Shown here: in pieces, positions 10,275 to 51,563 of the stretch | Layout of the letters: each line of letters starts with the position of its first letter | Numbering within the stretch: position 1 is the stretch's first letter | Assembly: GCA_902826615.1 (NCBI GenBank) | Contig: CADEFN010000001.1 | Coordinates: forward strand, 1,116,001 to 1,180,000 | Direction of reading: 5' to 3' | DNA: 64,000 nucleotides | From: an uncultured Gemmatimonadota bacterium | Lineage (GTDB): Bacteria > Gemmatimonadota > Gemmatimonadetes > Gemmatimonadales > Gemmatimonadaceae | Notes under the pieces: generated by a model | Told to the model about the DNA's origin: nothing | Databases searched by the model: none | Seen by the model: the letters and a program-made list of their open reading frames with translations, nothing else | Translations under genes and position numbers: made by a program

Positions 10275-11042
10275 ATGCAAACTGGCACGATGCTGCGCCC
10301 CATGTCATTGGGGGAATTGCTCGACGCATCCTTTGGCGTCTACCGGCGTCAGTTTCTTCCGCTCGTCTTCATCGCATTGTTGTGCCAGGCCATTCCGTTG
10401 GCGCTCGGTGTGTACCTGGAGCTGCAGGGAGGTGTGGTGGCCAATCCAGCGCTGTGGGCGGTTAGCGCGATCGCCGCGATCTTGCTTGGGTCCATCGGGT
10501 CAGCCGCGTCCACATTTGTGGTGGCTGAGGCTTATCTGGGCGGGCAGATCACGCCGCAGCAGGCCTTCTCGCGCGCGGTGCCGTTCCTGGGACGGCTCAT
10601 CGCGGCGGCGCTCCTCTCGGCGTTGCTGTACGTCTTTGGTCTGTTGCTCCTTGTCATCCCAGGGATCATCGTGATCTGTGGCCTGGCGGTGACCGCGCCG
10701 GCCATTGTCATCGAGAACCAGCCCAGCGCCACGGCCGGCATGTCCCGGTCGTGGAACCTGAGCAAGGGTCTGCGCATGAAGGTCTTTGTCGCCTTCATCG
10801 TGGTCTTCCTCCTTATCGCCCTGCCCGGCATAGCCCTGGGCGCTGTTGGTCTGGTCGCGGCGGGGGAAGGAACCACCGAACTCGGCCTTACCATCGGGTT
10901 TCTGCTGATCCAGTCGGTGCTGCAGGTGCTCGCCTATCCATTCTTCTACGTACTCACCACCCTGCTGTACTACGATTTCCGTGTGCGCAAGGAAGCCTAC
11001 GACCTCGACATGCTGTCAGCAGCGTTAGGCAGTCCCGCCTGA
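10275..11042 (+). CDS. Multi-pass membrane protein of the MoxR-DUF58 locus
   Basis: A 255-residue integral membrane protein with about six hydrophobic segments. The N-terminus MLRPMSLGELLDASFGVYRRQF is the hallmark of the family often labelled 'glycerophosphoryl diester phosphodiesterase membrane domain' or DUF7544-like. It contains a conserved-looking amphipathic stretch (ENQPSATAGMSRSWNLSKG) between membrane segments. No catalytic domain is attached, so enzymatic activity is not implied. Start at ATG 10275 because the hydrophobic family start follows directly. Its stop TGA overlaps the next ATG (TGATG at 11040-11044), indicating translational coupling. It is divergent from the RDD-SpoIIM gene. 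Confidence 0.75.
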   Translation: MQTGTMLRPMSLGELLDASFGVYRRQFLPLVFIALLCQAIPLALGVYLELQGGVVANPALWAVSAIAAILLGSIGSAASTFVVAEAYLGGQITPQQAFSRAVPFLGRLIAAALLSALLYVFGLLLLVIPGIIVICGLAVTAPAIVIENQPSATAGMSRSWNLSKGLRMKVFVAFIVVFLLIALPGIALGAVGLVAAGEGTTELGLTIGFLLIQSVLQVLAYPFFYVLTTLLYYDFRVRKEAYDLDMLSAALGSPA

Positions 11043-11665
11043 TGCTGCTGCAGGACACCCGGATCCCGGCCGATTCGTTGCGGGGACTCATCGACACGGT
11101 GTTGTCGGGGAGCGCCTATCAGCAGCGGCTGCGTGAGGATCCGTGGGCGCCGATGCGACGGGCCTGGATGTCCCTCATGGATTGGATCGATGCACTGCGC
11201 GCGTCGAATCCGATGGCGTATTCGGCGCTCATCTGGACCATGGTCGGCGTCCTGCTGCTGATTGTGGCCCATGCCGCCTGGGTCGCCGCGCGGACGATTC
11301 ATGCGGGCACGGCACGCGCGGCGGGGGATGTGCCGGAATCCCGTGTCGTGGCCCGCGACGCCGCCTGGTACGCCAGAGAGGCCGAGCGACTGGCCGGCGA
11401 GACGCGTTATGCGGAGGCGATGCAGGCTGACTTCCTGCGACTGGTGCTCGAACTCGATGGGCGGGAGGTGACACGGTACCACCCAAGCAAGACCCCCATC
11501 GAGTATGCGCGCGAGGCCAGGATCAGCGATGAGGCACGCCAGGCGTTTCGCGACCTGATTCGGGTGTTGTACACCCATGCCTTTGCCCGCATCCCAGCCA
11601 GCGAAGCCACCTGGCTCGACTGGCGCACGGCCGCTGCCGCCGATCGTTATGCGCCTGCGCGCTGA
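11042..11665 (+). CDS. DUF4129-domain membrane protein
   Basis: A 207-residue protein with one clear membrane segment (MVGVLLLIVAHAAWVAA, about residues 66-82). A C-terminal cytosolic helical region of the DUF4129 type follows: DAAWYAREAERLAGETRYAEAMQADFLRL and the late segment TPIEYARE..FRDLIRVLYTHAF. DUF4129 domains are often found at the C-terminus of transglutaminase-like proteins in MoxR loci; here it stands alone. It is coupled to the gene before (TGATG) and overlaps the gene after by 17 bases. Likely one component of a membrane complex with DUF4350, MoxR and DUF58 proteins; the function is unknown. Confidence 0.78.
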   Translation: MLLQDTRIPADSLRGLIDTVLSGSAYQQRLREDPWAPMRRAWMSLMDWIDALRASNPMAYSALIWTMVGVLLLIVAHAAWVAARTIHAGTARAAGDVPESRVVARDAAWYAREAERLAGETRYAEAMQADFLRLVLELDGREVTRYHPSKTPIEYAREARISDEARQAFRDLIRVLYTHAFARIPASEATWLDWRTAAAADRYAPAR

Positions 11666-12863: not shown

Positions 12864-13822
12864 CTGATTCGGAACTGGCCCCACACGTGGCGCTGGCGCA
12901 GGAGATTGCCCGTCAGCTCGACGGCGTGGTGCTCGGGCAGGAAGCGGCCATTCGCGAGGCACTCATGGCGCTCATGGCACGTGGCCACGTGCTGCTGGAA
13001 GGGCCACCGGGTACCGCGAAAACGCTCCTCGTGCGCGCGCTGGCGGTCGCGCTGGGGCTGCGATTCCGGCGCATCCAGTTCACGCCAGACCTCATGCCTT
13101 CGGACATCACTGGCGTGAGCCTGCTGAGTGGAGATCGTTTCGTCTTTCGCGAAGGGCCACTCTTTGCCGATCTCGTCCTCGGCGATGAGATCAACCGTGC
13201 CCCGGCCAAAACACAGGCTGCGATGCTCGAAGCCATGCAGGAACGCAGCGTCACGGTCGACGGGGAGTCGCATCGTCTCAGTGACAGCTTCACCGTGTTT
13301 GCCACGCAGAACCCCATCGAGTTCGAAGGCACCTATCCGCTCCCCGAGGCAGAACTGGACCGCTTTCTGGTCAAGGTGATTCTTCGCTGGCCGTCGGCCG
13401 AAGCAGAACAGGGACTGCTGCAGCGGGTGCTTGGGGGCTTCGACGCCTCGAATGCCGCGAGCTTCGGGGTGCGGCCGGTCACTGATGCCCAGGGGCTCGA
13501 GGCCCTCCGGCAGGCGGTGCGCCGGGTGCGGGTGGAGCCGAGTCTGGTAGGGTACATCACGGCCCTGGTGCGCACCACGCGTGATGCCCCAACCATCACG
13601 TTAGGCGCCTCACCTCGTGCGAGTGTGGCACTCCTCACCATGGCGCAGGCGTCGGCGCTGCTCGATGGACGCACCTACGTGGTCCCCGACGACGTCAAGG
13701 CGCTGGCGGCGCCCGTGTTGCGGCATCGAGTGCAGGTGGCACCGGAACTCGAACTCGAAGGAGTGACACCCGACGCCGCCATTGCGTCGCTGGCCGAACG
13801 GGTCGAGGCACCGCGGGGATGA
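12842..13822 (+). CDS. MoxR-family AAA+ ATPase
   Basis: A 326-residue AAA+ ATPase. Walker A is GPPGTAKT (residues 54-61), Walker B is LVLGDEINRA, and sensor 1 follows in VFATQNPIEFEGTYPLPEAELDRF, the diagnostic MoxR block. The C-terminal lid has TLGASPRASVALLTMAQASALLDGR. MoxR ATPases act as chaperones that assemble or activate partner complexes, usually with a VWA/DUF58 protein, which is the next gene. The start GTG at 12842 lies inside the end of the DUF4350 gene. The stop overlaps the DUF58 start (ATGA at 13819-13822). Position 13599-13606 carries one CGTTAGGC word inside the codons for Leu-Gly. Confidence 0.93.
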   Translation: MGSSAPLTDSELAPHVALAQEIARQLDGVVLGQEAAIREALMALMARGHVLLEGPPGTAKTLLVRALAVALGLRFRRIQFTPDLMPSDITGVSLLSGDRFVFREGPLFADLVLGDEINRAPAKTQAAMLEAMQERSVTVDGESHRLSDSFTVFATQNPIEFEGTYPLPEAELDRFLVKVILRWPSAEAEQGLLQRVLGGFDASNAASFGVRPVTDAQGLEALRQAVRRVRVEPSLVGYITALVRTTRDAPTITLGASPRASVALLTMAQASALLDGRTYVVPDDVKALAAPVLRHRVQVAPELELEGVTPDAAIASLAERVEAPRG

Positions 13823-15511: not shown

Positions 15512-16680
15512 TGAAGGGGCGCCAACCGCGCCTTTGCGCGTTGACCATGGCGGGGGTTTCCCTCGTCATGGTCATGTCCTGCGACCGCCCCGGGTCAAAC
15601 GTGCCGAACTTGGCTCAGCCTCCGGCAGGCACCCAGCAGCTGTCGGCCGTTTGGCAGTTCGACGGCGATTCGCTCGTCGCTTGGGCGGGGATCTCCGGTG
15701 CCGCACAGCTGGACGACTCATCGGTAGTGTTCGCGGATGTAGGGCAGGGCGCGCTTGTCGTTGTTGACTCGACAGGCGGTCTGATCCGAAAAGTGGGTCG
15801 AAGGGGACCGGGGCCAGGAGAGCACCAGTACATCCAGTGGTTTGGTGCGTGCTCCGATTCTGTTTTGGTCGCCTATGACCCGGCCAAAAACGAGATCGCC
15901 CTGCTTGACACTCAGCTCAAGGTGGTACGGACGGTCCTGACGCCCAGCGATTTGAGTCGCATGTCGGTGTTGGGCTGTCTGGAGGACGAGCGGCTCCTCT
16001 TTGCGCGCGAGCCCTCCATCATAGCGGGCTATGGTCCTCAAGTGTGGCCCCTTGCCCTGGTGAGCGTGCAGCTCACGTCGTCAAAGCTCGATACGGTTGC
16101 AACGCTGTTTGGGCGAGAGATGTTTGTGAGTCAGAAACACACTGCAACCATTCAGGTACCACTCGGCCGCCATACCCTGGTGTCGAGCGCAGATCGCACG
16201 GTATACGCCATGTCAAGTCACGGCGACTCTCTCCTTGTTTTTCAAGATGACGGTCCGCGCACGGTGATCCTCGAGGATTTACCCAGAGGTCTGAGTCGAT
16301 CGGCCCTCCTGTCACGGGCCAAACGCGAAGTCATCGAGGAATTTCCCGAGCGACGGAACCAGCGGGAGGCAGAACGTGTGATCGCGGAAATGGAAATTGG
16401 CGGCAACCCGCCTCGCGCTGAACGACTGCTGGGGACCAGTGACACGACACTCTGGATCGCGCTGCCAACCCCGGTCGATAGTACCCGGCTCTGGATCAAA
16501 TACAGCAACGAAGGCGAGCCACGTGCGCACGTATGGCTCCCCAGCGCATTCCGACCCTTCCTCGCGGACGATTCCTCCATGACGGGCTATCTTCGCGACA
16601 GTACTGGACTGGAATTGCCGCGGCGCTATCGCCTTCGAAGGGTGAACGGCGGCCGTGTGGGGGTCGATCCGCGCCCATAG
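15511..16680 (+). CDS. 6-bladed beta-propeller lipoprotein
   Basis: A 389-residue lipoprotein. The signal sequence ends in VMVMSC (lipobox-like). The repeats are of the 6-bladed propeller type: DDSSVVFADVGQGALVVVDSTGGLIRKVGRRGPGPGEH is the typical first blade with a GRxGxGPGE turn. It ends with LWIKYSNEGEPRAHVWLP. The ATG at 15511 overlaps the peptide stop; an in-frame TTG three bases upstream is an alternative start. It contains a TTA codon outside the TTAGG context at 16276, and its codon use looks slightly less GC-biased than that of its neighbours. Related proteins are abundant in Bacteroidetes and Gemmatimonadota. Function is probably binding on the envelope surface; the ligand is unknown. 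Confidence 0.8.
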   Translation: MKGRQPRLCALTMAGVSLVMVMSCDRPGSNVPNLAQPPAGTQQLSAVWQFDGDSLVAWAGISGAAQLDDSSVVFADVGQGALVVVDSTGGLIRKVGRRGPGPGEHQYIQWFGACSDSVLVAYDPAKNEIALLDTQLKVVRTVLTPSDLSRMSVLGCLEDERLLFAREPSIIAGYGPQVWPLALVSVQLTSSKLDTVATLFGREMFVSQKHTATIQVPLGRHTLVSSADRTVYAMSSHGDSLLVFQDDGPRTVILEDLPRGLSRSALLSRAKREVIEEFPERRNQREAERVIAEMEIGGNPPRAERLLGTSDTTLWIALPTPVDSTRLWIKYSNEGEPRAHVWLPSAFRPFLADDSSMTGYLRDSTGLELPRRYRLRRVNGGRVGVDPRP

Positions 16681-16767
16681 TCTGGCGCCCGTTGTCGTTG
16701 ACCCTCCCCGTCCGGAGAGCGAGTTTCCGTTCAGCAGAACCGCCACTCACTCTCGCGAATCCGGCAT

Positions 16768-18789
16768 ATGTCTCTTGCGAAGTTCTCCCGTGCGTGTTGT
16801 ACGGCACTTGTCGTTCTGGTGCCCGCCCTCATTGAGGCGCAGCAGGCGCCCCGCCTCGTGGTCACACCGGCCAACCCCCGGATGGTGTCGAAAGACACCC
16901 TGCGCCTCACCGCTCGTCTGGTTGATGCCAGCGGAGCGACGGTGCCTAACGCGCGCATCCGGTACTTCGCGGCTGGCGGAGGCTTCGAGGCGGCCGTTGA
17001 TAGCACCGGGCTCGTCACCTCGGGCGCGGTAGGCAAGTTTCCCGTGACCATCTCGGCCCTCGTGCCCGGGAGCCGCCCTGTCACACAGCGGGTGGAGGTC
17101 AACATGGTCGCTGGCCCCGCCGCGACCGCGACCATTACTCCTCAGCCGACGCGACTCCTCTCCGGACAGCGCTTGCAGCTCAACGCTCTGGCACGCTCCG
17201 CCGACGGCGACTCGGCGTCCGATCGCGTGACGTGGCGCTCGTCAGCACCCGCGGTTGCTGGTGTCAGCGAGCGCGGTGTGGTTTCGGCCCTTGCCCCCGG
17301 GCGCGCCACCATCACGGCGGCCGCGGGCGCGGCGAGTTCGTCCTTCGACGTGACGGTGGTCAACTCGGCCGGGGTGACCGTGACGGTGACGCCAGCGTCG
17401 GTGTCGGCACGTCAGGGGGACGTGGTGCGTTTCGCGACCGAGGTAAAGGATGCCTCGGGGCGCGCGATCGAGGGGTTGGTGCCGAGCTGGACGATGTCGC
17501 CCGGTCGCGGTGAAATCGGGAGTGACGGTGCCTTTGTTGGCCAAACGCCCGGCAGCTATCTGGTAACGGCAAACTTCGGCCGAGTGAGTGCCGATGTGCC
17601 AGTGACCCTGACAGAACGCAATGTGCGGCGCAAGACCACGGTGGTTGGCAGTGTGTTACGCACCGCCTTTGTGACCTCCGAAGTCTGGGTGCATCCCAAC
17701 GGCAAGGTCGCGTATCTGGGCACACACGCCGGTGGCGATCGCTTCTATACGATCGACATCTCCAACCCTGCCAAGCCGGTGGTGGTCGACTCGGTCATCG
17801 ACAACTTGCGTGTGCTCAACGACATCATGACCGACGAGAAGGGCGAGGTGTTGGTCTTCACGCGGGAAGGCGCCGACAACCGGAAGAACGGTATCGTCGT
17901 GATGACGCTGCAGGATCCTCTGCACCCCAAGAAGGTCGGCGAGTTTACCGACGGCGTCACCTCCGGGGTGCACTCGGCGTTCATCTACACCGATCCGAAG
18001 CACGGCCGTCATGCCTACATCACGAATGACGGCACCGGCGCCGTGCACATGATCAACATCGACGACCCCGCCAAGCCGCGCGAAGTGGCCCAGTGGAAGA
18101 CCCCGAGGCCCAACAACAGCGATGTTGGCCGCACCTTGCACGACGTGGATGTGCAGGACGGGCTGCTCTACGGCAGCTGGTGGAACGACGGCCTCATCAT
18201 TCTCGATGTCGGCAATGGCATCAGGGGCGGCACGCCGAGCAAGCCGGTGCTGGTGTCGCAATTCAAGTACGATCTGGACGCCCTCTACCGCACCCGGGTC
18301 GAAACCGACGCCGGCTCGGGTTACATCCGCGGAACCCACACCGCCTGGCGGCACAAGAACTACGTCTTTATTGCCGATGAGGTGTTCGATCCCGTGGAAG
18401 TGAATGCCGCGTTAGGCGGCAAGGTGGGGCGGGCCTATGGGCGTCTCCAGGTGGTCGACGTTTCGGATGTGACGAAACCGAAGTCGGTGGCGCATTACGA
18501 GCCCGAGTTTGGCGGGGTGCACAACATCTGGGCCGCCGGCGACACCTTGTACATGGGCGCCTACAATTCGGGCTTCCACGCATTCGACATCTCGGGTGAA
18601 CTCAAGGGCGATCTGCAGGCACAGGGGCGCGAGATGTCGCACTTCCAGCCGCAAAGCCCGCAGGGCAAGATCCCCAACGCCACCATGACCTGGGGTGTGG
18701 TGGTCAAGAACAATCTGATCTTCCTCAACGATATGAACTCGGGGCTCTGGATCGTGAAGATGGAGCCCAAGCCCTCCGTCGTTCCCTGA
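16768..18789 (+). CDS. Ig-like/LVIVD-repeat secreted protein, paralogue 1
   Basis: A 673-residue exported protein with a signal peptide ending near IEAQQ (residue 25). Residues ~27-290 hold three Ig-like (Big-type) modules: VVTPANPRMVSKDTLRL, then ITPQPTRLLSGQRLQL with WRSSAPAVAGVS, then VTPASVSARQGDVV. The remainder is an LVIVD-repeat propeller (YTIDISNPAKPVVVDS, MINIDDPAKPREVAQW, LQVVDVSDVTKPKSVAHYEPEFGGVHNIW) ending in KMEPKPSVVP. LVIVD proteins are thought to be cell-surface propellers. A second paralogue begins 24 bases later and a third lies at 49551. There is no catalytic motif, so adhesion or binding is the likeliest role. Confidence 0.85.
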   Translation: MSLAKFSRACCTALVVLVPALIEAQQAPRLVVTPANPRMVSKDTLRLTARLVDASGATVPNARIRYFAAGGGFEAAVDSTGLVTSGAVGKFPVTISALVPGSRPVTQRVEVNMVAGPAATATITPQPTRLLSGQRLQLNALARSADGDSASDRVTWRSSAPAVAGVSERGVVSALAPGRATITAAAGAASSSFDVTVVNSAGVTVTVTPASVSARQGDVVRFATEVKDASGRAIEGLVPSWTMSPGRGEIGSDGAFVGQTPGSYLVTANFGRVSADVPVTLTERNVRRKTTVVGSVLRTAFVTSEVWVHPNGKVAYLGTHAGGDRFYTIDISNPAKPVVVDSVIDNLRVLNDIMTDEKGEVLVFTREGADNRKNGIVVMTLQDPLHPKKVGEFTDGVTSGVHSAFIYTDPKHGRHAYITNDGTGAVHMINIDDPAKPREVAQWKTPRPNNSDVGRTLHDVDVQDGLLYGSWWNDGLIILDVGNGIRGGTPSKPVLVSQFKYDLDALYRTRVETDAGSGYIRGTHTAWRHKNYVFIADEVFDPVEVNAALGGKVGRAYGRLQVVDVSDVTKPKSVAHYEPEFGGVHNIWAAGDTLYMGAYNSGFHAFDISGELKGDLQAQGREMSHFQPQSPQGKIPNATMTWGVVVKNNLIFLNDMNSGLWIVKMEPKPSVVP

Positions 18790-18813: not shown

Positions 18814-20796
18814 ATGCTGATTCCACTGCTGCTGTTGCAGGCAACCGCCGCCAGTCCGGTTGCCCGCGTGGTCATCACCCCGTCGAAACCCGAGATGGTA
18901 GCGGGCGACACGTTGCGTCTCCGCGCACAGGCCCTCGACGCCAGCGGGCAGCCGGTGCCTAACGCACGTATCCGGTTTCAGGCCGACGGCGGGGATTTTG
19001 AGGCCGAGGTGGACTCGGCGGGGCTGGTACGATCGGGGGCGACGGGAACCATTCCGGTGGTAGTAGTCGCCACTGTCGCCGGCGCTCGCCCCATGGTGAC
19101 ACGGGTGGACGTGCGCATGGTGCCGGGGCCGGCCGCTCGCATTGCGACGGATCTTCGCCAGCTCAAGCTGGCGGCGGGGCAGTCCTTTCGGCTTGGCGCC
19201 AAGGTGTTCTCGAAAACGGGTGATGAACGACCGGGCGATCGGGTGATCTGGCAGGCGTCATCCGCGGTGGCAACGGTGGATGGCTCCGGGGTGGTGCGTG
19301 GCGTGCGTGCGGGGCGCGGTGTCATCACCGCGCGTGCTGGCGAGGCCACCATCACCGTGCCGGTGGAGGTTGTTCCCACGGCGGTCGCTGCGGTCGACGT
19401 CTCACCACCTCGGGTGGAGGTGCGCCAGGGTGATGTGGTCAAACTCGCCGCAACTGCTCGCGATCGCAGCGGCAAGGTGATCACTGGTTTGACTACCAGC
19501 TGGTCCTTTGCTCCTGGCCAGGGTGTGATCGACCAGCAGGGGAGCTTTGTGGCGTATGAACCCGGTGAGTATCTCGTCACCGGGTCGCAGGGTGATCGCA
19601 CCGCACATGCCGTGATCCGCGTGGCTCCGCGTGAGGTGCGTCGGCCGATGAGTGTGGTGGGTCGTCTGCCGCGCACCCGCTTTCGCACCGAGGAACTCTG
19701 GCTGCACCCCGATGGCAAACACGCGTATCTCGGTTCGGGCCGAGGCGGCGATGTGATGTATGCCATCGACATCAGCAACCCGTCGAAGCCGACTGTGACG
19801 GATTCCATCGTCACCAACACGCGTCGTGTGAACGATATCATGACGACGCCGGACGGGAAGTTCCTGGTCTTCACGCGTGAAGGCGCGAGTGACCGCAAAA
19901 ATGGCATCGTGATCTGCTCGCTCGAGGACCCCAAACACCCGAAGATCATCAGTGAGTTCACGGAGGGCGTGACCTCGGGAGTCCACTCGGCGTTCATCTT
20001 CAAGCAGGAGAAGTTCGGCACCCACGTCTATCTCACGAATGACGGCACGGGCGCACTTCATGTCGTGGACATCACCGACCCCTACAAGCCGAAGGAAGTC
20101 GCGCAGTGGAAGACACCCAAGGCCCACGGTGATGCCGGGCGTTCGCTGCACGACATCGACATTCAGGATGGTTTGCTCTACGCCAGCTGGTGGAACGACG
20201 GGTTGGTGGTGCTCGATGTCGGGAATGGGATGAAGGGCGGATCGCCGTCGAGCCCGCAGTTGGTCACGCAGTACAAGTACGACCTCAACGCGCTGTATCG
20301 CGACGTCGAGGCGGTCGGCGGACCCGGGTTCATTCGCGGGACACATACCGCGTGGCGCCACAAGAACTATGTGTTCATCGCCGACGAGGTCTTTGCTGCA
20401 AAGGAAGTGCAGGGCGCGAAGGATGCGTCGGCCTCACGGGCCTACGGGCGACTGCAGGTGATCGACGTGAGTGATATGGCCAACCCCAGGAGTGTGGCCT
20501 ACTACGAGCCCGAATACGGTGGTGTCCACAACGTCTGGGTGACCGGTGATACCCTGTTCATGGGCGCCTATGAAGCTGGCTTCCGCGCGTTTGACATCTC
20601 CGGGGAGTTGCGGGGCGATCTCCGCGCGCAGGGTCGCGAGATCGGTCACGTCAACACCGCCGACATGGATGGCAAGGTGCAGAACGCGTCGCGTGTGTGG
20701 GGCGTGATCTACAAGAACGGGCTTGCGTGGGTGAACGACAACCAGAACGGATTGTGGGTGATCCGGATGGAGCCAAAGCCGACTGTGGTTCCGTAA
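18814..20796 (+). CDS. Ig-like/LVIVD-repeat secreted protein, paralogue 2
   Basis: A 660-residue protein with the same architecture as its upstream neighbour: Ig-like modules, then an LVIVD propeller ending in RMEPKPTVVP. It follows paralogue 1 after 24 bases and is probably cotranscribed. Its signal sequence is unusually short (MLIPLLLLQATAAS) and lacks the basic residues normally found at the start of a signal peptide. No better in-frame start is available upstream. It is more similar to paralogue 3 at 49551 than to paralogue 1 (shared AYLGSG.GGDVMYAIDIS, TRRVNDIMTTPDGK and KAHGDAGRSLHDIDIQDG-like stretches), so the local pair is not the most recent duplication. Confidence 0.84.
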   Translation: MLIPLLLLQATAASPVARVVITPSKPEMVAGDTLRLRAQALDASGQPVPNARIRFQADGGDFEAEVDSAGLVRSGATGTIPVVVVATVAGARPMVTRVDVRMVPGPAARIATDLRQLKLAAGQSFRLGAKVFSKTGDERPGDRVIWQASSAVATVDGSGVVRGVRAGRGVITARAGEATITVPVEVVPTAVAAVDVSPPRVEVRQGDVVKLAATARDRSGKVITGLTTSWSFAPGQGVIDQQGSFVAYEPGEYLVTGSQGDRTAHAVIRVAPREVRRPMSVVGRLPRTRFRTEELWLHPDGKHAYLGSGRGGDVMYAIDISNPSKPTVTDSIVTNTRRVNDIMTTPDGKFLVFTREGASDRKNGIVICSLEDPKHPKIISEFTEGVTSGVHSAFIFKQEKFGTHVYLTNDGTGALHVVDITDPYKPKEVAQWKTPKAHGDAGRSLHDIDIQDGLLYASWWNDGLVVLDVGNGMKGGSPSSPQLVTQYKYDLNALYRDVEAVGGPGFIRGTHTAWRHKNYVFIADEVFAAKEVQGAKDASASRAYGRLQVIDVSDMANPRSVAYYEPEYGGVHNVWVTGDTLFMGAYEAGFRAFDISGELRGDLRAQGREIGHVNTADMDGKVQNASRVWGVIYKNGLAWVNDNQNGLWVIRMEPKPTVVP

Positions 20797-20863: not shown

Positions 20864-22960
20864 TTATCGACTGGCCGCGGCTTGTGGACTCTCTACCAGC
20901 GGAATGGACTTTCCCAAGCCATCGCGTTGAGGGTTGTCTGCGCTGGCCATAAAGCTCAGCAACGCGCGCGATAACTCCTCCGCTTTTTCGAACTGCACCG
21001 CATGTCCGGCGTCCAGTTCCATGACACGATTCTGTGGTGCGTGAAGCAGGGGCGCCAAATAGAGGCGGCCTTTGTGATTGTCTACGAGACGGTCGTGCGT
21101 CGCTGTCACCACCAACATCGGCAGCTTGACCTTCAAGATGGACTCCCACGACCGCTCCTGCACTTCGTCCATCACGATCACGGACTTCAGAGTGACTTCG
21201 GTCGTCTTCAACGCATCAGCGTCGATGAAATCGAGGCCGTCCGCCGAGAGCGTGAAATCGGTTGCCTGCAATGGAATCGGCACGAACGCCTCTTCCCGGG
21301 CAGGCGCGAGTTCGAAGTGCGTCAGCAACGCCTGCACTACACGTTCAGTCATGTCAATCACCGAGCGGAAGCGCGCGTTCCAGAAGAGTCCGGGTGTAAT
21401 CAGTAACACCGTCGCCAGCGCCCCTTCGTCCTGCAATCGCTCAGCAACGATCGCCGCATATTGCGCCCCCTGACACCAGCCGGCCAGATGAATCCGGTTG
21501 AAGCGTTTCGAGAGCATCTGCACGTGTTCGACCACATCTTCTATCGTGCGTGCAGCGCTCGCCAGATCACCACGGTCGCCGTTCGCTCCACAACCGCGAC
21601 GGTCAGGCGCAAAGACAGACACTTCTGATTGCGCACACACCGCTTGCGCCAGCGGACGTTGCCACAAGGAATGGCTCATGCCACCGTGCAAAACAACCAG
21701 AACATCAGAGCCGCTTTCCGGCCCCCAGAAGCGGTAGTTGATGCCGTAACCGTCCGACATGATCTGACGTGCGACGCTTTCCGTTTTTTTCCAACCATTG
21801 CCCCCCATGCGGCACGACAAGCCCCAGCCACGCCCCCACGCGTTAGGAGGCGTCAATTGCAATCCTTCGGTCGTGACTTCGGCGTAGGTGTTCCGCAGAT
21901 CCAGAAATCCGCCACGCCCCCAACGCAAGCTGGGACTCGCTGGTTCACGCTCGACCAGGCGCGAGCCGAATGCGCCTTCCTGAGCCACCAGTAAATCGCC
22001 TGCCGACCCAGCCAACAACATCGCGGCGCGCGTCAAGACCGAAGTCTCTCCGACGTGTGCCCCGATGATGACAGGCCATTCGCGCTTCTTGAGTTCTTCC
22101 AGCAGTCGCAGGCCGCGCAAGACGCCGCCGACACGCGAGACTTTCAGATTTGCCACAAAGCGCCCCGGCGCGCCGTCATAACGCGCCAGGTCAGCCATCG
22201 TACACAGGCTTTCATCCAGGATGATCGGGCATCTCAGAGCGACGCTGATCTGGCTGTGTTGCTCGACGTCACGCGGCTTCACGGGTTCTTCGACACCGAA
22301 CAGCTCGTGACCAAGCGCGCGTAAGTACGGCAGCGCTGCGCCGGGCGCATCGGCCCAGAGGTTGTTCGCGTCGACTCGCATCCTGAATCCAGCCACACCG
22401 TGCCAGGCCGTCAGTTCCTCGACGCTGCGGAGCTTTTCCCGATCCAGTTCCAGCTCGCCCCCCAACTTCACCTTGAAGTCCTTCACGCCAAGAATCAGGT
22501 ATTGATCGATGAGGAAGCGCGTCTTCCACGATTCGTCATTGCCCAACACCGCCGAATACACGTGCGGCCCGCCCGGGCCTGCCAGCCCGAGCAGTGCTTC
22601 GACGCTTTGCCCGCGTTCGCGCGCAAAGAGATCAAGCAGCGCACTCTCGATCGCGCACCACACCGACGGCGCACGGTCAATGTCGGAGGAATGCTCGACG
22701 ACCCAGCCTTGCATGGCTTCGAAACTCGAGCATTCACTCTGAATGGCCGCGTGCCACGTGGCTGCCCATTGTTGGCACGACGCTCGCGTTTCGCCTGTCA
22801 CATAGGCGCGCGGACAACCTTCGCCGTACCCGCGCACATCAGCGCGCGCAGCCTCTACCCACACGCTCTCGCCATGCGTGCGCGCCGTGGACGCGTGGCG
22901 AAACGTCATTCTCAGCGGAACCCGCAGTTCCGAAAACCGCAAACGCAAGGGAGCGGTCAT
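20864..22960 (-). CDS. Enolase-superfamily epimerase fused to an alpha/beta hydrolase
   Basis: A 698-residue fusion. Residues 1-380 are an enolase-superfamily enzyme of the dipeptide-epimerase/muconate-cycloisomerase group: KVK at 163-165, metal ligands Asp197 (RVDANN), Glu224 (GVEEPV) and Asp249 (ILDES), and the second catalytic Lys273 (NLKVSRVGG). Residues ~400-685 are an alpha/beta hydrolase with VLHGGMSHS as oxyanion loop, nucleophile elbow GWCQGA (Cys496 in place of Ser), Asp623 in ATHDRLVD and His653 in DAGHAVQFE. The codon for residue 496 is TGT at 21473-21475 (minus strand), so the Cys is really in the sequence. The start ATG overlaps the upstream gene stop (ATGA, 22957-22960). G+C is lower than in the neighbours. 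The fusion suggests one pathway where a racemised or cycloisomerised product is hydrolysed or acyl-transferred; substrates unknown. Confidence 0.82.
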   Translation of the reverse strand: MTAPLRLRFSELRVPLRMTFRHASTARTHGESVWVEAARADVRGYGEGCPRAYVTGETRASCQQWAATWHAAIQSECSSFEAMQGWVVEHSSDIDRAPSVWCAIESALLDLFARERGQSVEALLGLAGPGGPHVYSAVLGNDESWKTRFLIDQYLILGVKDFKVKLGGELELDREKLRSVEELTAWHGVAGFRMRVDANNLWADAPGAALPYLRALGHELFGVEEPVKPRDVEQHSQISVALRCPIILDESLCTMADLARYDGAPGRFVANLKVSRVGGVLRGLRLLEELKKREWPVIIGAHVGETSVLTRAAMLLAGSAGDLLVAQEGAFGSRLVEREPASPSLRWGRGGFLDLRNTYAEVTTEGLQLTPPNAWGRGWGLSCRMGGNGWKKTESVARQIMSDGYGINYRFWGPESGSDVLVVLHGGMSHSLWQRPLAQAVCAQSEVSVFAPDRRGCGANGDRGDLASAARTIEDVVEHVQMLSKRFNRIHLAGWCQGAQYAAIVAERLQDEGALATVLLITPGLFWNARFRSVIDMTERVVQALLTHFELAPAREEAFVPIPLQATDFTLSADGLDFIDADALKTTEVTLKSVIVMDEVQERSWESILKVKLPMLVVTATHDRLVDNHKGRLYLAPLLHAPQNRVMELDAGHAVQFEKAEELSRALLSFMASADNPQRDGLGKSIPLVESPQAAASR

Positions 22961-24072
22961 GCCGCATCCTTCTTGCGCGCGCCAAAGAGCGCGCGGAAGA
23001 ATTGCTCCATCCCGTAGAGGTGCTCACGATGAAAGGTCCAGCACGTGTAATCTTTCACCTTCGAGAAACCCGCGGCCGTAAATGCCGAGAGGTTGTCGCC
23101 TTCTTCCAGGGCGATGCATTGCATGCGACCCAGGGCAGCGTAACGTCGTCGGGCTGCATCAGCCAACGCATGACGGGCTGCATCGTCCGTGTCGTCCAGC
23201 ACATGCACGGTGAATGAATTGGTCAGCTCGCTGAAATTCATTCCCAATGAAGCAATCTCCAGGAGTGCAAAGCCTGCCACACGGCCATGCCGCTGAGCAA
23301 TGAGCGATTCACGGCGACGCAGCAAGCCAGCTTCTTCATATGCTCGCGAGATGTTCTCCACTCCGCGACAGCCGGCCTGCAGCTGATTGGCCTGCACCTC
23401 CACCATGCGGCCACGTGCGGTGAACCACTCTTCAATCATCGCGCGGTCTTCCTCTGCGCCGACTCGCACTTCGACCCCAGTGGGCGACTGTATGGCTGAG
23501 CCAATTGTCGATGCGACCAGGTAATGAGAGGTTCGCAAATCGGACGTCGCCGGATCTGTGACTCGCTTCGCGTATCCGCCAAACACCCGCGTCGGCCACA
23601 GGTTGTTTGGGCGAAAGTACATCTTGCCCCACACGAAGTCCGGTCGTAGTTGGCCGTATTGCGTGAACCCCAGCGCCACCTGAGCCGAAGCAGACATTCT
23701 GCGCGCCGACATCGGCAGAGCGGCCAGATGCTGCACGATCCAGGTCTGTTCGCACCAGCGAAGACTGCCCAGATGCGCTTCCAGGCTTTTGGCGCCACGC
23801 ATCACCGCTGTTGCCATCAGATTGCCATTGGCCAGCAGCAACTGGCGCACGGTCTGTTGAATATCAGGCAACACCGGCTCCAGCCGAGCCACTTTTTCAG
23901 GGTAGAGAAAGCCGCTGTCCAACAACAATTGCCAGACATCTTCAAAGGTGACATCGTGTGCCACCCGCAATCCCGGATAGTCCGCCTCAACCTGCCGGGC
24001 ATATTCGTGTTGTGCGTTGTACGACCGAAACGCCGTTGGTGCTGGTCGGTGAATGGTTGACGTGCTTAGCAT
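22957..24072 (-). CDS. GNAT-like acyltransferase candidate
   Basis: A 371-residue protein with no confident family. The C-terminal third reads like a GNAT fold: ESLIAQRHGRVAGFALLEIASLG (strand-turn-strand), TNSFTVHVLDD, then an Ala/Arg-rich helix and GRMQCIALEEGDNLSAFTAAGFSKVKDYTCWTF, similar to the GNAT C-terminal strand. The N-terminal part may be a diverged second copy. The ATG at 24070-24072 has a good ribosome-binding site (AAGGAG, 8 bases before it). An upstream in-frame GTG is less likely. It is the first gene of a two-gene operon, and its stop overlaps the epimerase-hydrolase start. Both genes share the lower G+C of this 3.2-kb stretch, so horizontal acquisition is likely. Function not assigned. 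Confidence 0.6.
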   Translation of the reverse strand: MLSTSTIHRPAPTAFRSYNAQHEYARQVEADYPGLRVAHDVTFEDVWQLLLDSGFLYPEKVARLEPVLPDIQQTVRQLLLANGNLMATAVMRGAKSLEAHLGSLRWCEQTWIVQHLAALPMSARRMSASAQVALGFTQYGQLRPDFVWGKMYFRPNNLWPTRVFGGYAKRVTDPATSDLRTSHYLVASTIGSAIQSPTGVEVRVGAEEDRAMIEEWFTARGRMVEVQANQLQAGCRGVENISRAYEEAGLLRRRESLIAQRHGRVAGFALLEIASLGMNFSELTNSFTVHVLDDTDDAARHALADAARRRYAALGRMQCIALEEGDNLSAFTAAGFSKVKDYTCWTFHREHLYGMEQFFRALFGARKKDAA

Positions 24073-24391
24073 CACTTCCGCTCCTTGCCGTTGACTGCCC
24101 TTGATTCGATCTCCGCGCTATCTGAGCCGGAGAGAAGATTGCGGTGAGCGAGCTCAAGGATTCCCTGGCTCATCGCTCACCGTCACGAATGCGCAGGTTG
24201 CGGGCGAATCCCGCCAAGCAGGGTCAGATTTGTCAGAGAAGGGGCTTCTGCAGCCAGCGGTTCGAGGACCGCCGGGGCGCTGAGACCTCGCACGTCCTCG
24301 AGTGGGGTGGGCGCCAACCTCGATCCAGAGGCTTGCCTCGTCATGCCCGCCAGGGCATTCTCACGCCCTGCCGACCACCCCACACCGCCTG
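24073..24391. other. Divergent intergenic region, about 320 bases
   Basis: It separates the GNAT-like gene (minus) from the FHA-transglycosylase gene (plus). There is no supported gene. The only clear structure is the inverted repeat at 24142-24182. Confidence 0.5.
24142..24182. repeat. Inverted repeat in the divergent intergenic region
   Basis: CGGTGAGCGA (24142-24151) pairs perfectly with TCGCTCACCG (24173-24182) around a 21-base loop. No T-tract follows. It could be an operator or a terminator-like structure; it lies about 70 bases upstream of the minus-strand gene and 210 bases upstream of the plus-strand gene. Confidence 0.5.
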
Positions 24392-49269: not shown

Positions 49270-49550
49270 TGAGCTGAGGCGCTGGACGGCGTTCGGATCC
49301 GGCCGTCGGCGGCGTCGCAACCAGACAAGGCATGTGCAGGGAGTGCTGCCGGACACCGATAGCGAATGTGGCGCTGCGCACCCCCACCACGGGTGCAGTG
49401 ACTTGCGGCCGTGCACGGGCTGTCACAGGAGGTGCTCGGGGTGACCGCTGGCTGATTTGTCGCGAGGCGACGATATGACCGTTGCCCGGAGTGTACCCAC
49501 CGGTACATCGTGTAGGGCGCGGCGAAGGGCCGCGACCCACCCTGAGAATC

Positions 49551-51563
49551 ATGCCAATGAAACGTGTTGCAGCAGGAGCCATCCTCGTGCTGGCTTCGAC
49601 GGCGTCCGCGCAATCGTCGCAGGTCGCCCGTATCGCGATCTCACCGGCCAAGCCAGTCGTGACCGCGGGCGATACCATGCGCATCAGCGCGCAGGCGCTC
49701 GACGCAGCGGGCAAGGTGGTGCCGGGTGTCCGCGTCAGGTTCCAGGCCCAGGGTGGCCGATTCGAGGGGGATGTCGACTCGTTAGGTCTGGTGACCTCTG
49801 GCGCTACGGGCACCCTCCCGATCGCCGTGGTTGCCATCATTCCTGGTGAGCGGCCTCGCACCGAGCGGATCGAGGTCAAAATGGTCCCCGGTCCCGCCGC
49901 CGCCATCACGCCAACCTACACGAGCGTCCGGATGGCCCTGGGTCAGCGCCTGCGCGTGGGCGGACAGGTGTTCTCCAAGACGGGTGATCCCCGCCCCGAC
50001 GAGCGCATTACCTGGAAATCATCGGCGCCCGCAGTTGCCCGTGTAGACGCCGACGGCATGGTCGCCAGCGCGGCGGCCGGCAAGGCGACGCTGACCGGCA
50101 CCTCGGGCGCTGCCACGGTGAACGTGCCCGTTGAGGTCATGCCGACGCAGATCGCGAGTCTCGAACTCTTTCCGGCACGCGTCGACGCCAGACAGGGCGA
50201 TGTGATCCGTCTCAAGGCAACCGCCAAGGACGCGCGCGGCAAGGAGATCGCCGGGCTCTCCACGGGCTGGTCGTTCTCCCCGGGTGAAGGGGTGATCGGC
50301 CAGGATGGCGCCTTTACCGGGTATGCACCGGGCGAGTACGTCATCACCGCCAGTCAGGGTTCGCGGACCGCGCAGACCGTGGTGCGCCTCACCGCCCGCG
50401 ACGTGCGCCGACCGCTCTCCGTGGTTGGTCGCCTTCCGCGGACCCGCTTCTCCACTGAAGAAGTCTGGATCCACCCCGATGGCAAACATGCCTACCTCGG
50501 TTCGGGTTCGGGGGGTGACGTGATGTACGCGATCGACATCAGTGACCCGGCCAAGCCGACGGTCACCGATTCCATCGTGTCCAACACCCGCCGCGTCAAC
50601 GACGTGATGACCACGCCCGATGGCAAGTATCTCGTCTTCACGCGCGAAGGCGCGAGCGACCGCAAGAACGGCATCGTCATCTGCTCGCTCGAAGACCCGA
50701 AACATCCCAAGGTCATCAGCGAGTTCACCGATGGCGTCACCTCCGGCGTGCACTCGGCCTTCATCTACCAGCAGCCCAAGTTCGGCACCCACGTCTACCT
50801 CACCAATGACGGCACGGGCGCGCTGCACGTGCTGGACATCAGCGATCCCTACAAGCCGAAAGAAGTGGCGCAATGGAAAACGCCCAAAACGCATGGAGAT
50901 GTCGGCCGCACGCTGCATGATATCGATGTGCAGGACGGTCTCCTCTACGGCAGCTGGTGGAACGACGGCCTGGTGATCCTCGACGTCGGCAACGGCATCA
51001 AGGGCGGCTCGCCATCCAACCCCGTCATGGTGTCGCAGTTCAAGTACGATCTCAACGCCATGTACCGCGATGTCGAAGCGAGTGGTGGCCCGGGCTTCAT
51101 CCGCGGCACCCACACGGCCTGGCGTCACAAGAACTACGTCTTCATTGCCGACGAGGTCTTCCCTGCTGCCGGTGTAAAGGGCGCCAAGGACGCGTCAGCA
51201 GGTCGCGCCTACGGCCGCCTGCAGGTGATTGACGTCAGCGACATGAACAACCCCAAGTCGGTCGCGCACTATGAACCCGAGTTTGGTGGTGTGCACAACG
51301 TGTGGGTGGCGGGTGACACGCTGTACATGGGGGCCTACAACGGCGGCTTCCGCGCGTTTGACGTCGGTGGCGAGCTGCGTGGCGACCTGCGCGCGCAGGG
51401 CAGGGAGATCGGGCATCTCAACACTGCCGACATGGACGGCCGCGTGAAGAACACCGCCATGACCTGGGGTGTGGTCGTGAAAAACGGCCTCGCCTATGTG
51501 AACGACATGTACAACGGGCTCTGGATCGTGAAAATCGAACCCAAGCCGTCAGTGGTGCCTTAG
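49551..51563 (+). CDS. Ig-like/LVIVD-repeat secreted protein, paralogue 3
   Basis: A protein of about 670 residues (start at 49551; ATG at 49557 is equally possible). Signal peptide ends near ASAQ. Ig-like modules are followed by an LVIVD propeller with the same sequence blocks as paralogues 1 and 2, ending KIEPKPSVVP. It is close to paralogue 2 (AYLGSGSGGDVMYAIDISDPAKPTVTDSIVSNTRRVND). It stands alone about 29 kb from the other two. Its convergent neighbour on the 3' side is a plug-like lipoprotein, with the palindrome at 51565-51682 between them. Function as for the others. Confidence 0.84.
   Translation: MPMKRVAAGAILVLASTASAQSSQVARIAISPAKPVVTAGDTMRISAQALDAAGKVVPGVRVRFQAQGGRFEGDVDSLGLVTSGATGTLPIAVVAIIPGERPRTERIEVKMVPGPAAAITPTYTSVRMALGQRLRVGGQVFSKTGDPRPDERITWKSSAPAVARVDADGMVASAAAGKATLTGTSGAATVNVPVEVMPTQIASLELFPARVDARQGDVIRLKATAKDARGKEIAGLSTGWSFSPGEGVIGQDGAFTGYAPGEYVITASQGSRTAQTVVRLTARDVRRPLSVVGRLPRTRFSTEEVWIHPDGKHAYLGSGSGGDVMYAIDISDPAKPTVTDSIVSNTRRVNDVMTTPDGKYLVFTREGASDRKNGIVICSLEDPKHPKVISEFTDGVTSGVHSAFIYQQPKFGTHVYLTNDGTGALHVLDISDPYKPKEVAQWKTPKTHGDVGRTLHDIDVQDGLLYGSWWNDGLVILDVGNGIKGGSPSNPVMVSQFKYDLNAMYRDVEASGGPGFIRGTHTAWRHKNYVFIADEVFPAAGVKGAKDASAGRAYGRLQVIDVSDMNNPKSVAHYEPEFGGVHNVWVAGDTLYMGAYNGGFRAFDVGGELRGDLRAQGREIGHLNTADMDGRVKNTAMTWGVVVKNGLAYVNDMYNGLWIVKIEPKPSVVP

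Follow-up and report, generated by a model that had tools for sequence, protein, structure and literature searches.

The P2/P1 gene pair and its domains

We analysed a stretch of 64,000 nucleotides from an uncultured Gemmatimonadota bacterium (contig CADEFN010000001.1, positions 1,116,001 to 1,180,000; hereafter the window), which carries on its minus strand two overlapping genes, P2 and P1. This pair is real, transferred and conserved; it is also rare, and undescribed within the literature searched. The first gene, P2 (22957..24072), encodes a GNAT-like protein, a putative N-acyl(amino acid)transferase kept in four other genomes, and starts either at an ATG at 24072 (371 residues) or at a GTG at 24075 (372 residues), with its end at 22957; the whole transferred unit spans 20864..24075. 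The second gene, P1 (20864-22960, 698 residues), encodes a fusion of an enolase-type domain with an alpha/beta hydrolase. Start and stop overlap by four nucleotides (ATGA, 22957..22960) in all five loci that carry the pair, an arrangement consistent with translational coupling. Both open reading frames lie on the minus strand where a sequence-only reading of this DNA had located its two-gene unit (20864-24072).

The fusion announced by that reading was borne out, as Pfam models matched both parts of P1. Domain 1 (21881..22960, residues ~1-360) belongs to the enolase superfamily, muconate-lactonizing/epimerase type, on the basis of a match to MR_MLE_C (6.6e-21, residues 158-329) and of its alignment to the solved structures 3jva and 1jpm; towards the N-terminus, NCBIfam models cover the protein from residue 10. 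Domain 2 (20867..21772, residues ~397-698) matched Hydrolase_4 (1.1e-17, residues 420-641) and Abhydrolase_6 (1e-16), with polyhydroxyalkanoate (PHA) depolymerase and lactonase models giving the best scores. The structure model of P1 (mean predicted local distance difference test score, pLDDT, of 51) is too poor for use on the domain interface.

All the enolase catalytic residues had been announced as present, and the alignment agrees: K163, K165, D197, E224, D249 and K273 occupy the positions of the lysines and metal ligands in the L-Ala-D/L-Glu epimerase 1jpm and are invariant in the five fusions. The domain therefore shows the KxK motif, the D-E-D metal ligands and the second Lys of the muconate-lactonizing enzyme (MLE) subgroup. 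The label "epimerase" stands only as a family inference, since P1 scores well short of the cutoff with each curated model of an epimerase or racemase: 69.8 bits against 200.65 for TIGR01928 (E 2e-19), the model of N-succinylamino-acid racemase/o-succinylbenzoate synthase (NSAR/OSBS), 40.4 bits against 343 and 35.6 against 500 for the NCBIfam dipeptide epimerases, and a below-cutoff match to the N-acetyl-D-Glu racemase model NF042940 (1.2e-18).

In the hydrolase domain, the triad Cys496 (GWCQG elbow)-Asp623-His653 is intact and again invariant in the five fusions. A Cys-nucleophile signature (GxCxG with Asp and His) is present in each of them and in a free-standing relative at locus L030, so that Cys496 holds as the proposed nucleophile and homologues do not mostly carry Ser; indeed, no Ser homologue at this position was found among the five fusions and L030. 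The comparison rests on these proteins because 199 genomes of the phylum of locus L004 yielded nothing related to this domain at E <= 1e-15 beyond the fusion itself. Since the enolase residues and C496/D623/H653 are kept in all five fusions, both halves of P1 look like working enzymes under selection.

For P2, the part of the description as GNAT-like that stood is the fold: in a low-confidence structure model, the C-terminal core (residues ~200-330) resembles GNAT proteins, and the Foldseek matches listed are GNATs of all kinds (best E 1.1e-3). No GNAT profile match accompanies it, and P2 is best called GNAT-like, a weakly supported assignment to a family that would lie outside the libraries searched. 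As a sign of internal duplication (a tandem GNAT), comparison of the N- and C-terminal halves with hhalign gave only E 0.61, from an alignment of just 5 rows. The best distant homologue (L013, 25% identity over 265 residues) makes up the C-terminal portion of a longer protein, and its neighbourhood contains no enolase. This 689-residue protein (L013:8597-10666) has an N-terminal part that looks PilZ-like by eye, for which Pfam gave no such match.

Distribution, transfer and base composition

A pattern search over 84,980 species genomes, which picks up close relatives only, found P2 in only four further loci (L003, L004, L005 and L006), all in metagenome-assembled genomes of Acidobacteriota, two of them named Bryobacteraceae. 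Identity to the four Acidobacteriota pairs ranges from 70 to 84% for P1 and from 54 to 76% for P2. In all four loci P1 directly follows P2 with the same 4-nucleotide overlap, so the GNAT-like gene is linked to the fusion in five of five cases and these pairs do not lie in unrelated contexts. By profile search, P2 was found in only one of 249 genomes sampled from the same phylum as the window, namely this genome, in two of 396 genomes of the phylum of L004 (the L004 genome itself and one distant partial case) and in three of 150 genomes of the L004 family. At the DNA level, the window and L003 (contig guanine-plus-cytosine content, GC, of 54%) are 78% identical across the unit and their flanks have no meaningful homology.

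Because homologous pairs occur at five loci in two phyla, the DNA homology stops at the unit and a single genome out of 249 of its own phylum has it, horizontal transfer of the unit between distantly related bacteria is well supported, and the acquisition supposed by the sequence-only reading is upheld by these comparisons. Carriage by a plasmid or phage was considered and rejected, as neither plasmids nor viral contigs gave a match to P2, and the plasmid matches to P1 were only distant dipeptide epimerases.

The flanks of the pair look unrelated to it, with two LVIVD-repeat proteins on one side and an FHA/transglycosylase protein on the other. In the congener G870 (locus L048), the only one that spans the correct junction, an OmpA-type gene comes after the same two LVIVD genes in place of the P2/P1 unit. 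An apparent synteny of this site with the congeners G029 and G871 was discarded, since it belongs to a third LVIVD paralogue (49482-51563), which has a syntenic copy in G029. The window thus contains three Ig-like/LVIVD-repeat paralogues (16768-18789, 18814-20796 and 49482-51563), and congeners retain several copies. At L004, a 468-base direct repeat (10858-11324 and 16496-16963, 97.7%) includes the 3' end of P1 and flanks a TonB-type gene region; it is either a recombination scar or an assembly effect.

The low GC of the unit had been put forward from three 60-base lines. The counts quoted are exact (32, 31 and 31 G+C at 22201, 23221 and 23881, against 43 at 13441); these hand-picked lines overstate a contrast that is really modest. 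The mean G+C per line is 36.1 inside the unit against 38.7 outside, and lines with <=32 G+C make up 11% of the unit's lines against 3.4% outside. The claim itself survives, as the unit differs from its neighbours: its GC is 60.2%, against a mean of 64.3 +/- 1.5% for stretches of equal length in the window, and it is the window minimum, with none of the 272 equal-length windows clear of the unit reaching so low a value. GC at third codon positions (GC3) is 0.698 for P1 and 0.649 for P2 (mean 0.741 +/- 0.036). In codon use, every open reading frame that outranks P1 or P2 in deviation is shorter than the gene it outranks; both are deviant for their length. Composition by itself is weak evidence for transfer.

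Free-standing enolase relatives beside GH3 genes

Relatives of the enolase domain also occur as free-standing proteins, in three genomes from the L004 phylum (L019, 41% identity; L020, 39%; L021, 31%) and in two from the same class as the window (L029, 43%; L030, 29%). A GH3 gene adjoins the enolase relative in all five cases, the L020 contig ending within it. When compared with the model of the lyso-ornithine-lipid synthetase OlsH, the GH3 proteins of L030 and L019 gave 8.6e-35 and 4.6e-29, below cutoff. A fatty-acid hydroxylase is present as well at L019, L021 and L029, and a full CocE/S15-type hydrolase at two of these three. The order CocE/S15 hydrolase, fatty-acid hydroxylase, GH3, enolase recurs in one genome from each of two phyla (L019:5186-11106 and L029:2941-8829). 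No GH3 was found in the window's genome, which was searched for it.

At L030 (6695-11692), an alpha/beta hydrolase gene is followed by the enolase, the GH3 and an FAA-hydrolase-like gene, and the ends of these genes overlap; this set is a probable unexplored N-acyl amino acid pathway. Its free-standing hydrolase carries a GHCFG elbow, has an Asp and a His that line up with those of the P1 triad, and shows homology to the P1 domain (25% over 259 residues, 7.6e-12). As this Cys hydrolase gene overlaps the enolase gene, P1 looks like a joined version of two genes that adjoin each other in a GH3 set, of which L030 would be the split form.

The two kinds of enolase differ at two positions: the five GH3-linked ones have Arg at 273 and Gln at 302, and the five GNAT-linked ones have Lys and His. 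Since the tree places them in two distinct groups (91/100, with long and unresolved branches at greater depth), the Arg/Lys difference is one evolutionary contrast and not ten.

Possible function and comparison with known systems

From the gene pair, its overlap, the catalytic residues, the transfer and the company of GH3 and Cys-hydrolase genes, all of them observed, we tentatively favour the explanation that the two genes form a module, spread by horizontal transfer, through which N-acyl amino acids, either free or aminolipid-like, are made or remodelled and in which the GNAT-like P2 replaces GH3. Enolase-type enzymes act at the alpha-carbon of carboxylates, and N-acyl amino acids are substrates of kin such as NSAR. 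In the scheme that we infer, including its substrates, direction, stereochemistry and the choice between acyl transfer and hydrolysis, P2 would form an amide by transferring an acyl group to an amino acid at its alpha-amine, as a GH3/OlsH-type amide synthetase does where related gene sets are concerned. The metal of the enolase domain would then hold the carboxylate of the N-acyl amino acid, K165 and K273 would shift the alpha-proton to give the other stereoisomer, and the Cys-Asp-His domain would form an acyl-thioester enzyme and hand the acyl group on, either by O-acyl transfer as in OlsI or by release. Precedents exist for parts of this scheme: a bacterial GH3 enzyme N-acylates an amino acid and an alpha/beta-hydrolase protein O-acylates the product to give ornithine lipids (PMC12493201), certain GNATs of bacteria produce N-acyl amino acids (PMC11631085) and GNAT-type enzymes are capable of N-acylation of amino acids (PMC8762209).

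Several observations weigh against this explanation. P2 has no Pfam or NCBIfam match, neither it nor its relatives match a GNAT profile, its structure model has a mean pLDDT of 47.7 with the better-scored stretches at residues ~200-330, and by eye it lacks the usual GNAT coenzyme A (CoA)-binding loop; for these reasons P2 may not be a CoA-dependent acyltransferase. Likeness of the hydrolase domain to OlsI is marginal (NF052614, 23.3 bits against 385, over 69 residues only, 4e-5), and the five fusion loci lack a linked fatty-acid hydroxylase or any other lipid gene. Because Arg replaces K273, the reaction of the GH3-linked enolases may also differ from that of P1.

The strongest rival, which we nonetheless judge unlikely, is a conversion of D- to L- or L- to D-amino acids, where the GNAT would short-acylate a D-amino acid, the enolase racemise the N-acyl form and the hydrolase deacylate it. 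Sakai and colleagues reportedly described in 2006 such a route for D/L conversion, made of a GNAT, an N-succinylamino-acid racemase (NSAR/OSBS) and a hydrolase. Three catalytic roles match in order, K165 and K273 are both present as in racemases, and the enolase domain does match TIGR01928 and NF042940, although below their cutoffs; PMC8762209 refers both to N-acyl racemases and to a GNAT enzyme that acylates aromatic D-amino acids. However, the P1 hydrolase uses a Cys nucleophile and is not M20, the nearest kin of the enolase domain adjoin GH3 and not M20, and the genome already has the expected set elsewhere (G000:C1:915488-918613, L049:3489-6614): a GNAT-like gene (weak Acetyltransf_7), a TIGR01928 protein (327 bits against 200.65) and an M20 peptidase, lying one after the other. 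This is the arrangement expected for N-succinylamino-acid racemisation; since it is present in the same genome, the window pair is not required for this task.

In an improbable alternative, the Cys domain would act as a thioesterase or esterase on an acyl or ester bond, P2 would be a transferase that depends on aminoacyl-tRNA or on a carrier, and the product would be a small peptide-like metabolite. The missing CoA loop, the PHA depolymerase and lactonase scores, and the presence among the P2 fold matches of the tRNA-dependent peptide synthase Sba18 (9wqy, rank 31) and of tandem GNATs are consistent with it, but these fold matches cover all GNAT kinds without preference, and no carrier protein or non-ribosomal peptide synthetase gene was seen nearby in any of the five loci. 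That the genes are non-functional or neutral passengers, as their sporadic distribution might suggest, is very improbable given intact frames, the 4-nucleotide overlap and catalytic residues all kept in five loci down to 70% identity. Least probable of all and rejected is a MenC-MenH-like fusion (o-succinylbenzoate synthase plus 2-succinyl-6-hydroxy-2,4-cyclohexadiene-1-carboxylate synthase) for menaquinone synthesis: the MenC models TIGR01928 and TIGR01927 match the enolase domain and MenH is also an alpha/beta-hydrolase protein, but the scores lie far below the cutoffs, the genome's own other protein exceeds that of TIGR01928, MenH uses a Ser nucleophile, the GNAT-like partner would be left without a role and the pair is nearly absent from the window's phylum.

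Going beyond the N-acyl amino acid module favoured here, we advance as a speculation, rather unlikely in its full extent, that undescribed amino-acid lipids or N-acyl D-amino acids arise from a module that combines an epimerase of the enolase type and a Cys-dependent alpha/beta acyltransferase with an exchangeable amide-forming enzyme, either GH3 or a member of a new GNAT-like family, the GNAT-like partner having been gained along with the fusion and with the Arg/Lys change that separates a one-base enzyme from a racemase. If true, the stereochemical inversion of an N-acyl amino acid would be built into lipid or signal synthesis of environmental bacteria, a new GNAT-like family would join OlsB, FeeM and GH3 as an amide-making route, many bacterial GH3 proteins with products not yet known would be given a concrete enzyme set, and the Arg/Lys switch would become testable within the enolase superfamily.

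No literature on enolase/hydrolase fusions or on GH3 with enolase was found, and the known systems compare with the pair as follows. In the OlsH-OlsI ornithine-lipid pathway of Singulisphaera acidiphila (PMC12493201), the GH3 beside the enolase relatives has its counterpart, as it matches the OlsH model, whereas the window pair has no GH3, its hydrolase domain is only marginally like OlsI and no enolase is mentioned in that work. FeeM/NAS, the N-acyl amino acid synthases, and the GNAT-type OlsB have the proposed role and the fold class in common with P2, which unlike them is matched by no Pfam or NCBIfam GNAT model. The NSAR/OSBS route, as reported by Sakai et al. in 2006, shares a GNAT-like gene, an MLE-type enolase with KxK and a second Lys, and an acyl-bond hydrolase; it differs in that the P1 enolase lies outside TIGR01928, that a fused Cys alpha/beta hydrolase takes the place of a separate M20 and that the genome's NSAR-linked set is elsewhere. 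The L-Ala-D/L-Glu dipeptide epimerases 3jva and 1jpm are the best solved relatives, with metal ligands and catalytic lysines that all align with P1, but P1-type domains have conserved segments of their own (G[AC][HQ]VGETS and EGxFGxxL). Finally, although no PhaC model matched the P1 hydrolase domain, which is nearer to Hydrolase_4/Abhydrolase_6, this domain shares with the PHA synthase PhaC an alpha/beta fold, a Cys in GxCxG and a Cys-His-Asp triad, the last two making up the lipase-like box and active site of PHA synthases (PMC7175313).
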